Below, in pieces: positions 40,067 through 43,641 of a stretch of DNA of 64,000 nt. Made by a program: the position numbers and the translations under genes. The notes under the pieces were generated by a model. It did no database searches, was not told the DNA's origin, and saw only the letters and a list, made by a program, of their open reading frames with translations. Each line of letters opens with the position of its first letter. The first letter of the stretch is position 1. The DNA comes from Fervidobacterium gondwanense DSM 13020 (GTDB lineage Bacteria > Thermotogota > Thermotogae > Thermotogales > Fervidobacteriaceae), in assembly GCF_900143265.1 (NCBI RefSeq), contig NZ_FRDJ01000003.1, positions 124,001 through 188,000 on the forward strand, read 5' to 3'.

Positions 40067-40091
40067 AGGGGAGATATACTCTCCCCTTTTT
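40067..40091. terminator. Terminator after guaB
   Basis: The stem AGGGGAG/CTCCCCT with a 7-base loop is followed by TTTT, between convergent guaB and the small membrane protein gene; it may work in both directions. Confidence 0.85.
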
Positions 40092-40094
40092 CAA

Positions 40095-40406
40095 TTAATT
40101 CCAATCTCTTTTCCTCTTACCAGAAATGATGAACTTTAAACCAATTTCAATTAACCCTGCTGCGATGATAGCTACCACAAATTCCCAGAATCCCATTTTG
40201 ATGTAATCTAGAGATTGTACGACAATTAGTCCACCGAGTATGGCAAGACCTACACCGTTTGGAAAACTTTTTATCATGCTGATAATACCGCCCGCCAGTG
40301 CAATGGCACCGAAAATAAGCCACACTGGGGAAGTAATTGAAAATACAACGCTAAGTAGTATAAAAACACCAGCCGTAACCAAAATAACGCCCCAGAACAC
40401 ATTCAT
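40095..40406 (-). CDS. Small membrane protein (LiaI/DUF5668-like)
   Basis: A 103-residue protein made almost wholly of four hydrophobic segments (starting FWGVILVTAGVFILLSVVF), with a basic tail GKRKRDWN. It looks like the LiaI/LiaF-type transmembrane domains found in envelope-stress operons. It is the last gene of a four-gene minus-strand operon starting with the DUF2089 regulator. Of the possible starts I prefer ATG 40406, with AAGGGG upstream. Role unknown, probably membrane anchor or sensor for the two solenoid proteins. Confidence 0.6.
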   Translation of the reverse strand: MNVFWGVILVTAGVFILLSVVFSITSPVWLIFGAIALAGGIISMIKSFPNGVGLAILGGLIVVQSLDYIKMGFWEFVVAIIAAGLIEIGLKFIISGKRKRDWN

Positions 40407-40414
40407 CACACCCC

Positions 40415-41371
40415 TTACTCTATTTTTTGTATTGGATTTCCAGTCAGTTCTTCGTAATCGAATTCTCTTGCCTTGATGCTTCCAGAATTGCTTATATATT
40501 CTGTAAACAGTTTCTCCGTGTATATTGTACCACTATTTTCAACATCTTCAGCATGCATACTTTCAGATGATATCTTCCCAGAATTCGTGATATTTTCAAT
40601 ATTCAAGTTCCTGGCATCTATTTCTCCGCTATTCTCAATATTCTCACCAACAAACGTCTCTGTCTTGATTAAACCATTGTTTTGAAGTTCTTCAAAATTC
40701 AAAGTTTTGGCGACAATTGTGCCATTACTAACCACATTTTCTGCTGTAATTTCGTCAGAAGTAATCGAACCGCTACTTGAAACCATAAATTCTTCTGTGG
40801 AGATCTTCCGTGCAAAAAGTTTCCCAGTTACGATAAGTGTTTCGCACACTACATCATCTGCATGAAGAACCCCATTCACAACAATTCTGTCCTTCTTGTA
40901 ACGTTCGGTCTTCATCTCTCCATCTATTATTGAATTTTCTCCAAATGTTATGTTCTTTGCAAATTTCTCAACGAATGGAACTTCAAAAGATACTATGTTA
41001 CGTTTACCTCTTATTGTTGGCGTGCCCTCCTCACTCGAAAGTACGAGATTTACATCGCCATCCACTTCTCCACCGCTCCATTTAACCTTTGTCCTTACAG
41101 CGTTAATGTTTCCATGCACCTTGCCAGATATTTCTAATGTACTGTTGACAGTAGATACATTTCCAAATAGCTCTCCTCTTATAAATACTTTGCCATTTGT
41201 CACTGATAAATTCTTCCGAACAACCTCACCTTCCGAAATCACGATTGTACTGTCGATTACTTCCTCAACGTGTTTGACTTCGGATTCGAATATTGCATTA
41301 ATCAATTTTTCCGCATCTTCTGGTGTTATGTCTCCGCTTTCAACTGCCTCTAAAACTTTTCGCAGCTCCAT
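40415..41371 (-). CDS. Beta-solenoid (bactofilin-like) protein with YvlB/SHOCT-like N-terminal motif
   Basis: 318 residues. A short helical N-terminal motif (4-30: VLEAVESGDITPEDAEKLI) is shared with the two neighbouring genes. A repetitive beta-solenoid follows, and at about 199-310 there are seven exact-length 16-residue repeats, such as NSGEIDARNLNIENIT and NSGKISSESMHAEDVE, each starting near N-[SN]-G. This resembles polymer-forming bactofilin (DUF583) folds, though no direct family match is claimed. No signal peptide. ATG 41371 is taken because GGAAGG lies 8 bases upstream. Confidence 0.6.
   Translation of the reverse strand: MELRKVLEAVESGDITPEDAEKLINAIFESEVKHVEEVIDSTIVISEGEVVRKNLSVTNGKVFIRGELFGNVSTVNSTLEISGKVHGNINAVRTKVKWSGGEVDGDVNLVLSSEEGTPTIRGKRNIVSFEVPFVEKFAKNITFGENSIIDGEMKTERYKKDRIVVNGVLHADDVVCETLIVTGKLFARKISTEEFMVSSSGSITSDEITAENVVSNGTIVAKTLNFEELQNNGLIKTETFVGENIENSGEIDARNLNIENITNSGKISSESMHAEDVENSGTIYTEKLFTEYISNSGSIKAREFDYEELTGNPIQKIE
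40442..40777 (-). repeat. Seven 48-base coding repeats (16-residue solenoid units)
   Basis: The seven consecutive 16-residue units at the C-terminus of the solenoid protein follow the pattern [SN]-[SN]-G-x-I-x5-[IFL]-x2-E-x-[IVL]. The units are conserved in pattern rather than DNA sequence, so this is an old duplication rather than a recent slippage array. Confidence 0.75.
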
Positions 41372-41398
41372 AGTTTTCACCTTCCCCTTCTTGAGTCA

Positions 41399-41896
41399 TT
41401 AATCCTCTATCTTAATTCCCGAGAGTAATGGTCTTACAACAACGTTCTTTACTAAACCTATGATGCCACTGACAAAAAAGTTGTTAACTTCACTCACATT
41501 TCCTTCAACAACCGGCTTGACACCTTTATAATTGCAACCGACCATTTGGAGATTACCACCAATACGTCCACCATTCCACGTTACGTTAGTCCCTACTAAT
41601 TCAACATTTTTTGTTACTTCACCTGAAAACACGACTTCTCCAAAAACAACTTGCAAAGAACCGACAAGTTTCCCGTTTATCACTGCTCGACCGTTTACAA
41701 TCTCAATATTTCCTACGTATTCTTCACCTGTGTTTAAAACAAACTCTTTCCCTATAAAACTTTTCGATTTTTTTCTCCGATCAGATTCTTTAGATTGCTT
41801 AATTGCAAGGATAAGTTGCTCGGCGTCTTCAACTGTGATCTCCTTTCTTGCAAGCGCCTCAAGAATCGCCCTGATGTCATTCGGAAGTTCTCCCAT
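41399..41896 (-). CDS. Beta-helix (bactofilin-like) protein with YvlB/SHOCT-like N-terminal motif
   Basis: 165 residues. The N-terminal motif ILEALARKEITVEDAEQLI (about 10-28) is the same module as in the genes on both sides. A basic linker (SDRRKKSKSF) follows, then a short-repeat beta region (about 45-140; for example GNIEIVNGRAVINGKLVGS). A hydrophobic stretch FVSGIIGLVKNVVV near the end may touch the membrane. Shorter paralogue-like partner of the 318-residue protein downstream. GGTGA lies 5 bases before ATG 41896. It overlaps the DUF2089 gene by 20 bases. Confidence 0.6.
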   Translation of the reverse strand: MGELPNDIRAILEALARKEITVEDAEQLILAIKQSKESDRRKKSKSFIGKEFVLNTGEEYVGNIEIVNGRAVINGKLVGSLQVVFGEVVFSGEVTKNVELVGTNVTWNGGRIGGNLQMVGCNYKGVKPVVEGNVSEVNNFFVSGIIGLVKNVVVRPLLSGIKIED

Positions 41897-42278
41897 CTTC
41901 CTCACCCCTTCTCTGCTTTTTTAGAAGAGATATAGCTTCCTCGACAGTTATCTTCTTTTCCTTTAGCAGTTTGAACACATCTCCGGATTCCGACTCTTCC
42001 GAATCCGATTCGATAGGAGTTAGACCCATCTTTTCGAGCACCTTATCAAGCCTGCCTCTCAACGCAAAGTAGCCAATACCGGTGAGCCTCTCCATCTCCT
42101 TTAAGTTTCCCTTTGTTCTTAAAAACATCATTATGAATTTCGTATCCTCTTCATCCAAATATGCGAAAGCTGGGGCATCAAAGTAACCACTAACCGTAAC
42201 TCCATCGTCATCACATCTTAGCTGTATAACTTTCATTGGTTTCCCGCACACTGGACATCTGGGAAGCATATTCGCCAT
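41877..42278 (-). CDS. DUF2089 family zinc-ribbon/HTH regulator
   Basis: 133 residues. A CPVC pair at 8-11 with Cys22 suggests a zinc knuckle. A helix-turn-helix of the sigma-factor type follows (about 47-84: FLRTKGNLKEMERLTGIGYFALRGRLDKVL, cited by extent). The C-terminal KLLKEKKITVEEAISLLKK is the module shared with the two downstream genes. This fits a DNA-binding regulator of its own operon. The start has a perfect GGAGGTGATTGT before ATG, and the promoter at 42297-42325 is near consensus. Confidence 0.75.
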   Translation of the reverse strand: MANMLPRCPVCGKPMKVIQLRCDDDGVTVSGYFDAPAFAYLDEEDTKFIMMFLRTKGNLKEMERLTGIGYFALRGRLDKVLEKMGLTPIESDSEESESGDVFKLLKEKKITVEEAISLLKKQRRGEEDGRTSE

Positions 42279-42296
42279 ACAATCACCTCCAAAATA

Positions 42297-42325
42297 ATTG
42301 TATCACTTATAAAATTTTTTGTCAA
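42297..42325 (-). promoter_or_regulatory. Promoter of the DUF2089/solenoid operon
   Basis: The minus strand reads TTGACA (42325-42320), a 17-base spacer, then TACAAT (42302-42297), about 20 bases before the ATG, so the leader is very short. Confidence 0.82.
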
Positions 42326-42404
42326 ATAATACAAAAATATTGGAACAAACTTTGACAAGAGAGAAGAATCGCATAAATAAGCAGTATGAGAGATTTGAAA
42401 GTAC

Positions 42405-42477: not shown

Positions 42478-43641
42478 ATGGTCACACTTTTATTAGCATT
42501 TATATATGTTTCATTCATCAGCTTGGGTTTACCTGATTCCATGTTTGGAGCCGCTTGGCCTGTTATTAGAAATGATATGATGTTGCCGGTTTCAACTGCT
42601 GGATTGATTTCGTTAATAAGCACTTTGACTATTGTCTTTTCAACCCTGTTAAATCCATTTATTGTCAGGCGCTTGGGGACTGGAAGACTAATTGTGATAA
42701 GCACGTTGTTTTCTTCTGTTGGGTTATTACTATTCTCTCAATCCAGAACACTCATACATCTTTGCATTGCAACAGCATTCACGGCTTTAGGTGGTGGTAG
42801 CATTGATGTTTCACTAAACAATTTTGTGGCTCTTCACTACAAGCCCAAGCATATGAACTGGCTACACTCTCTATGGGGTGTCGGAACAACATTGGGTGCT
42901 TCTATAATATCTGCTTTTGTTGGTTCTTACGGTGGGTGGAGAAATGGGTACACTGTCGTTTCGATGTTTCAGTTATTGTTATCTTTTATATTTATGCTGA
43001 TGTTACCGGTTTGGAACGTTCATAAGAATAATAATGAGGGTCAGATCGAGCAAAAACGTATCGTACGTTCTCCTCTTTTGGTAAAAAACGCCATTCTCTC
43101 AGTAACAGCTTTTTTTGCATATTGTGCTATCGAAACAACAACAGATGTTTGGGCAAGTTCTTTCTTAGTGAATTTCAAAGGTCTTTCTCCTTCATTTGGA
43201 GCCAGAGGAACTGCGCTTTTCTTCTTTGGAATAACACTTGGAAGAATTCTATCTGGTTTCTTGAGCATGAAAATCAAAAGTATTCCAATGATAAGATTGT
43301 CTTTACTCATGATACTTATAGGGGTGATTATGCTTTTGTCAAAAATGCCCACGGTATTATATCTAATAAGCCTTGGAGTCATTGGTTTTGGTTGTGCACC
43401 AATATTTCCTACAATGATGCATGAAACTCCCAGAAGATTTGGCGTCGAAGTGTCAAATTTCATAGTTAGTTTGCAAATGGCAGGTGGGTATTTGGGAAGT
43501 GCGTTTGGACCATTTTTGTTTGGACTTCTAATTTCTAAGGCAGGGATACAGCTTTTGCCACTTTTTCTTTTAAGCTTGCTTTTAGCATTGGTCTTAATAA
43601 CTGAGAGACTAAATTCGAAGTTAAGACTTCTTCACGAATAA
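42478..43641 (+). CDS. MFS transporter
   Basis: A 387-residue, 12-helix permease of the major facilitator superfamily. There are hydrophobic segments throughout, SISLGLPDS-like start (FISLGLPDSMFGAAWPVI) and a central loop about 180-205. The start LGLPDSMFGAAWP resembles the FHS (fucose/glucose) sugar porter group. Substrate unknown. AGGAGG lies before the ATG. It has a possible own promoter and is the first gene before hfq, which has its own. Confidence 0.82.
   Translation: MVTLLLAFIYVSFISLGLPDSMFGAAWPVIRNDMMLPVSTAGLISLISTLTIVFSTLLNPFIVRRLGTGRLIVISTLFSSVGLLLFSQSRTLIHLCIATAFTALGGGSIDVSLNNFVALHYKPKHMNWLHSLWGVGTTLGASIISAFVGSYGGWRNGYTVVSMFQLLLSFIFMLMLPVWNVHKNNNEGQIEQKRIVRSPLLVKNAILSVTAFFAYCAIETTTDVWASSFLVNFKGLSPSFGARGTALFFFGITLGRILSGFLSMKIKSIPMIRLSLLMILIGVIMLLSKMPTVLYLISLGVIGFGCAPIFPTMMHETPRRFGVEVSNFIVSLQMAGGYLGSAFGPFLFGLLISKAGIQLLPLFLLSLLLALVLITERLNSKLRLLHE

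Follow-up and report, generated by a model that had tools for sequence, protein, structure and literature searches.

The closest described counterpart of the locus studied here is a four-gene context reported by Ravi et al. 2024 (mSystems, PMC11237479), which comprises DUF2089 (Zn ribbon, HTH and SHOCT-like domains), Toastrack, and LiaI-LiaF-TM or PspC proteins. In the proposal of these authors, SHOCT-like domains serve as membrane anchors and Toastrack builds signalling complexes beneath the membrane (PMC11237479). The operon found in the window (the whole 64,000-nucleotide stretch of Fervidobacterium gondwanense DNA that was analysed) is like this context in its DUF2089 regulator, LiaF-TM protein, SHOCT-like partners and the same operon position. 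It differs in having SHOCT-like proteins with bactofilin-like solenoids in place of Toastrack (DUF4097), together with a changed recognition helix and zinc ligand, a triple operator and an MFS member of the regulon. The original prediction, which knew of no described system with this make-up, is contradicted by the DUF2089/Toastrack/LiaI-LiaF-TM context. The general system had already been predicted (PMC11237479), and what is new is the solenoid swap, the defined operator and the predicted exporter target.

The operon also resembles yvlABCD of B. subtilis and enterococcal LiaXYZ, envelope-stress operons in which a beta-solenoid protein acts beside a small PspC-type membrane protein. We take CAB15517.1 to be YvlB, and LiaX to be a YvlB homologue. 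A SHOCT-like N-terminus has been reported for CAB15517.1 (PMC11237479). YvlB and LiaX have Toastrack, whereas the Fervidobacterium operon has bactofilin-like solenoids. The yvl operon belongs to the sigma-W/AbrB regulon (PMC3498285) and liaXYZ is under LiaFSR control (PMC11601895), neither being controlled by DUF2089. In the LiaXYZ model, the response is held back by the regulated protein LiaX, and PspC-type LiaY has its role at the membrane (PMC11601895); any likeness of mechanism would be a functional analogy only.

With bactofilins (BacE/BacF, Thermus 6RIA), the solenoid proteins share a beta-solenoid signature, with PF04519 profile matches in 13/15 P3-type proteins. Unlike bactofilins, the two proteins concerned (P2 and P3) carry a SHOCT-like module and are encoded in an operon with a regulator, P3 being extended by a second long solenoid; their polymerisation is putative. 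As in leaderless bacteriocin clusters (enterocin DD14, bawcin), a DUF2089 gene lies beside genes for export and membrane proteins; the DUF2089 proteins of those clusters, however, are short (89-98 aa), with putative roles and no solenoid reported there. Compared with the classical PSP/Lia systems (PspA/LiaH), no PspA-family protein was found among the four operon proteins. A literature search found no paper naming both bactofilin and SHOCT.

Gene organization of the operon

The original prediction had read this region as a four-gene cassette behind a near-consensus promoter. An ORF check found all of the genes where it had placed them, co-directional on the minus strand with operon spacing, and the promoter scored 11/12. 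The features are as follows.

41877..42278, minus strand: P1, DUF2089 regulator, 133 aa; zinc ribbon CxxC...CxxD, HTH and C-terminal SHOCT-like module
41399..41896, minus strand: P2, SHOCT-like module and short bactofilin-like beta-solenoid; from alignment of relatives, AF2 (AlphaFold2) and a weak PF22746 match
40415..41371, minus strand: P3, SHOCT-like module and two-part bactofilin-like beta-solenoid; from PF04519, PF22746, relatives and AF2
40095..40409, minus strand: P4, four-TM LiaF-TM protein; from PF22570
42297..42325, minus strand: promoter TTGACA-N17-TACAAT
40067..40087, no strand assigned: possible bidirectional terminator between P4 and a convergent guaB-like gene; 8-pair stem, then a T-run

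Because the reading frames of P1 and P2 overlap and the gaps are short (~27 bp for P2-P3 and 5 bp for P3-P4), the four genes were taken as one operon. Conservation among relatives indicated internal ATG codons as the likely starts of P2 (ATG 41896; ORF open from GTG 41905) and P3 (ATG 41371; ORF open from GTG 41380). NCBIfam and PADLOC searches of the operon proteins gave no useful match. In the window's genome the operon has a common intergenic region with a divergent MFS_1 gene (42478-43641), in place of which several Fervidobacterium relatives have an HflX-like gene upstream.

A shared SHOCT-like module and bactofilin-like solenoids

Pfam searches with P1 matched PF22747 (6e-11), PF09862 (6e-18) and PF22746 (8e-5), giving a zinc ribbon, an HTH and a SHOCT-like part in that order; the last scored 22.5 bits, under the 27-bit cut-off. 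P1 is the only predicted DNA-binding protein of the operon.

The short motif noticed earlier in three consecutive genes proved to be one module, Pfam SHOCT-like_DUF2089-C (PF22746), which lies at the C-terminus of P1 and at the N-termini of P3 (4e-5) and, weakly, P2 (0.03). Across the whole 2.1-Mb genome, PF22746 had three matches better than E=0.2, all of them in P1-P3, and 15/15 P3-type relatives carry the module. The AF2 models of P2 (pLDDT 77.5; helices 6-16 and 22-37, strands after) and P3 (pLDDT 85.4) both show a pair of short helices ahead of a beta-solenoid, in agreement with the similar helices and the two solenoid proteins that had been predicted. A module common to P1, P2 and P3 suggests that the regulator and the solenoids assemble together or at one membrane site.

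The supposed likeness to bactofilins was supported by profile searches. P3 matched Bactofilin (PF04519) with 8e-6 and 26.4 bits, just under the 27.9 cut-off, and 13 of the 15 P3-type relatives matched it (best E 3e-9), with Toastrack absent among the families that these 15 matched. P2 had no PF04519 match, and 3/10 P2-type relatives did. Foldseek searches with both models returned generic beta-solenoids only, none at E<0.001 (P2 against the Thermus bactofilin 6RIA reached only E=0.8), so the structural assignment ends at beta-solenoid. A direct PDB sequence search with P3 gave no match, and PHROGs gave a single weak match to P3 (0.008), from a family of unknown function.

These matches, and the membrane assemblies and filaments formed by BacE and BacF of B. 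subtilis (PMC4627819), would also fit a cytoskeletal or shape module, in which bactofilin-like polymers give the cell envelope its organisation and DUF2089 does no more than set their dose. We consider this improbable: the solenoids occupy the operon position of Toastrack, an exporter gene has the operator as well, the loci read showed no cell-shape gene, and the solenoids differ much in length and number.

P4 matched LiaF-TM (PF22570) with 9.6e-7 and 30 bits, above the cut-off of 27, which upholds the predicted LiaI-like membrane protein and its link to envelope and Lia systems. All six genomes inspected for it keep this gene downstream of the P3 gene. At loci of other genera (L082-L085, L090, L091, L093), MFS exporters or ABC ATPase-permease pairs occupy the place of the LiaF-TM gene, 3' of the solenoid gene.

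Apparent replacement of Toastrack in two families

We compared 101 Thermotogota genomes, 33 from families f1 (which includes Fervidobacterium) and f3 (presumably Thermotogaceae) and 68 from other families. P3-like proteins were found in 33 genomes, namely 33/33 of f1/f3 and 0/68 of the others. Toastrack (PF13349) was found in 67 genomes, 66/68 outside f1/f3 and 1/33 inside, and in the sole f1/f3 exception (G030) it is housed in a second DUF2089 operon (L089). No window protein matched Toastrack (DUF4097), and PF13349 is absent from the window's whole genome. In the f1/f3 loci read, DUF2089 adjoins a solenoid gene, the conserved co-occurrence that the original prediction had called for; outside f1/f3, DUF2089 is followed by Toastrack-type and multi-TM proteins (at L062, Toastrack PF13349 at 7e-23). 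Judged by this gene content, f1 and f3 have proteins with a SHOCT-like module and bactofilin-like solenoids where the other families have Toastrack. Fisher tests of the distribution were extreme, but the genomes are not independent, and one or few replacement events would suffice.

Predicted operator boxes at the operon promoter

Three near-palindromes ~21 bp apart, with a consensus of about CAAAATATTTTG, extend over the promoter. All three were read from the sequence, and their layout is conserved.

42331..42342, minus strand: operator box 1, CAATATTTTTGT
42310..42321, minus strand: operator box 2, CAAAAAATTTTA, overlapping the -35 hexamer
42289..42300, minus strand: operator box 3, CAATTATTTTGG, overlapping the -10 hexamer and start region

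The boxes are common to the upstream regions of 19 f1/f3 DUF2089 genes, at -15, +5 and +26 from the -35 hexamer. Best-fit spacings were 20-22 bp, with A/T runs blurring the register by about 1 bp; the two halves of each near-palindrome differ in their degree of conservation, and the final base of the third box was G in 27/27 promoters fitted. The operator promoters had layout scores of 20-24 of 24, whereas none of the 128 remaining promoter-like sites at these loci exceeded 18; the median over all promoter-like sites was 14. DUF2089 promoters of other families scored <=26 of 36, against 29-34 for operator promoters. In 11 whole f3 genomes a strict box pattern matched at the DUF2089 operon only (reversed control, 0 or 1 matches); background matches are common in the A/T-richer f1 genera g2 and g4, so the claim of uniqueness is limited to f3. 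The window's own boxes are imperfect, and a strict search (21-bp spacing, <=2 mismatches) failed to recover them, as did the promoter-anchored pattern for the window's own promoter. An 8-bp inverted repeat in this promoter (TTGTCAAA/TTTGACAA) was rejected as an operator because it is not conserved.

Operator boxes lying over a sigma-70 promoter indicate repression, and the covering of a near-consensus promoter suggests the same here. Given their A/T-rich composition, and with DUF2089 binding predicted from sequence, the boxes could instead have a structural part in the promoter, as UP-like or curved DNA, or be bound by a regulator other than DUF2089. This we regard as very improbable, since the boxes occur at one place per genome in f3, are absent at other promoter-like sites of the same loci, accompany an MFS gene when it is unlinked, and coincide in lineage with a change of the recognition helix.

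A predicted exporter gene under the same operator

Extra operator-pattern matches in Fervidobacterium relatives sit 5' of an unlinked MFS gene. The ortholog in the window's genome (G000:C2:182550-183776) has 73% identity, and an operator-pattern match at G000:C2:182474-182522, found prior to the gene, lies 28 bp before the matched MFS region. The array before this gene was also found in the other Fervidobacterium genomes and in both genomes of genus g5, where it is more degenerate; in G058, one of two MFS copies has the array and the other lacks it. In genera g2, g4, g7 and g10, the best homologue of the exporter lies directly downstream, within the DUF2089 operon. The array thus stays with genes that are no longer in the operon. 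No other observation speaks so strongly for a shared regulator, and a conserved candidate DNA switch links the operon to a predicted export pump gene in Fervidobacterium. The adjacent divergent MFS (42478-43641) was rejected as this exporter, as it matched MFS_1 only, without an MFS_3 match, and the ortholog lies elsewhere.

Seven other f1 genomes have a similar box promoter before a gene for a 3-TM protein. This gene (L133-L136, L158-L164) encodes 72 aa, is flanked in several instances by ligA and an RNase R-like gene, and has TTTGCA or similar in place of TTGACA. Small 3-TM proteins also occur inside DUF2089 operons of other families. Between the regulon MFS and its upstream neighbour in Fervidobacterium (L139 about 1380-1400, L141, L145, L146), an element of about TTCG-N5-CGAA lies beside TTATACCACAA and could serve the neighbouring promoter as an operator of its own.

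An MFS exporter inside the operon or under its operator also raises the reading of an efflux-resistance cassette, which would sense a membrane-active compound (peptide, drug) and induce an MFS or ABC exporter, the solenoids and the 4-TM protein being protective or accessory and not signalling. It gains from the ABC ATPase-permease pairs that come next in other genera, and from DUF2089 proteins that occur together with ABC exporters in leaderless bacteriocin clusters. Of the Toastrack-type operons read in other Thermotogota, however, most have no adjoining exporter, and the reading overlaps with an envelope-stress module; we consider it unlikely.

Changes in the DUF2089 regulator

All 18 operator-type regulators (f1/f3 operons) have GYF[AT]LRG in the presumed recognition helix, where the DUF2089 proteins of other Thermotogota families have a SYPTA(K/R) or SYPTAxxRL-like helix. 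The second zinc knuckle of f1/f3 DUF2089 proteins is CxxD or CxxH (in L091 the motif was not located), against CxxC elsewhere in Thermotogota. By these alignments, the predicted recognition helix and fourth zinc ligand are altered in the same lineages as the operator and the solenoid swap. A change of helix and operator in the same lineages fits the DUF2089 protein as the binder of the boxes, short of proof, and it is as such that we infer its role. Since f1 and f3 may be sister families, the helix, operator and solenoid changes may each go back to a single event, which makes their coincidence weak evidence of causation. The CxxC...CxxD/H zinc ribbon of these families (window 42170-42260 in P1) may have an altered metal site or redox sensitivity. 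A literature search found no experimental study of any DUF2089 regulator.

Proposed mechanism

We favour, with a probability of about 0.58, a module of the DUF2089/LiaF-TM kind that regulates itself, responds to envelope stress and controls an exporter, with bactofilin-like solenoids in place of Toastrack. The operon, the domains, the operator with its copy at the exporter, the lineage swap and the co-varying recognition helix were all read from sequence comparison. The DUF2089 protein probably binds the three near-palindromes as dimers ~21 bp (two helical turns) apart; binding over its own promoter would repress the operon, and the same repression would act at the promoter of the MFS exporter gene elsewhere in the genome. 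Assembly of P1, P2 and P3 with each other or at the membrane probably runs through presumed docking of their SHOCT-like modules, with P4 as the likely membrane anchor or sensor. A putative envelope-stress signal would alter this assembly and free the promoter, so that the scaffold proteins and the exporter rise; the solenoids may polymerise.

A more specific version is that a bactofilin-like submembrane polymer, in the former role of Toastrack, is the scaffold that holds or releases the transcription factor through the SHOCT-like module; the repressor and the exporter regulon would then be gated directly by a cytoskeletal assembly. This is tentative, and we think it rather doubtful. The original interpretation stood in its module, co-occurrence, LiaF link and bactofilin likeness; it did not stand on the novelty of the system, and it had overlooked the operator, the likely internal starts of P2 and P3, the exporter regulon and the replacement of Toastrack. 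The predicted operator, the two predicted target operons and the natural swap from Toastrack to a bactofilin-like domain make the proposed function of the DUF2089 family directly testable with few constructs. The same holds for the notion that solenoids of the Toastrack and bactofilin types can stand in for each other as membrane-signalling scaffolds.

DUF2089 regulators in other loci

DUF2089 relatives were present in 98/101 sampled Thermotogota genomes. Such regulators thus occur in nearly all of the sample, and also in other phyla; the one studied here has a predicted operator and two predicted target operons. A second DUF2089 type in Thermotogota (L060, L061, L067) has a 3-TM protein upstream, then DUF2089, then a SHOCT-like protein of 123-125 aa; L060 and L061 adjoin a protein of 862 aa whose N-terminus resembles valyl-tRNA synthetase. 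On a Niallia taxi plasmid (L156, 3989-4753), a DUF2089 gene is followed by one whose 129-aa product has a SHOCT-like motif at its N-terminus, EISRVLTMLEDGKLDKEKAAELI, so the pairing of DUF2089 with a SHOCT-like protein occurs in Bacillota too.
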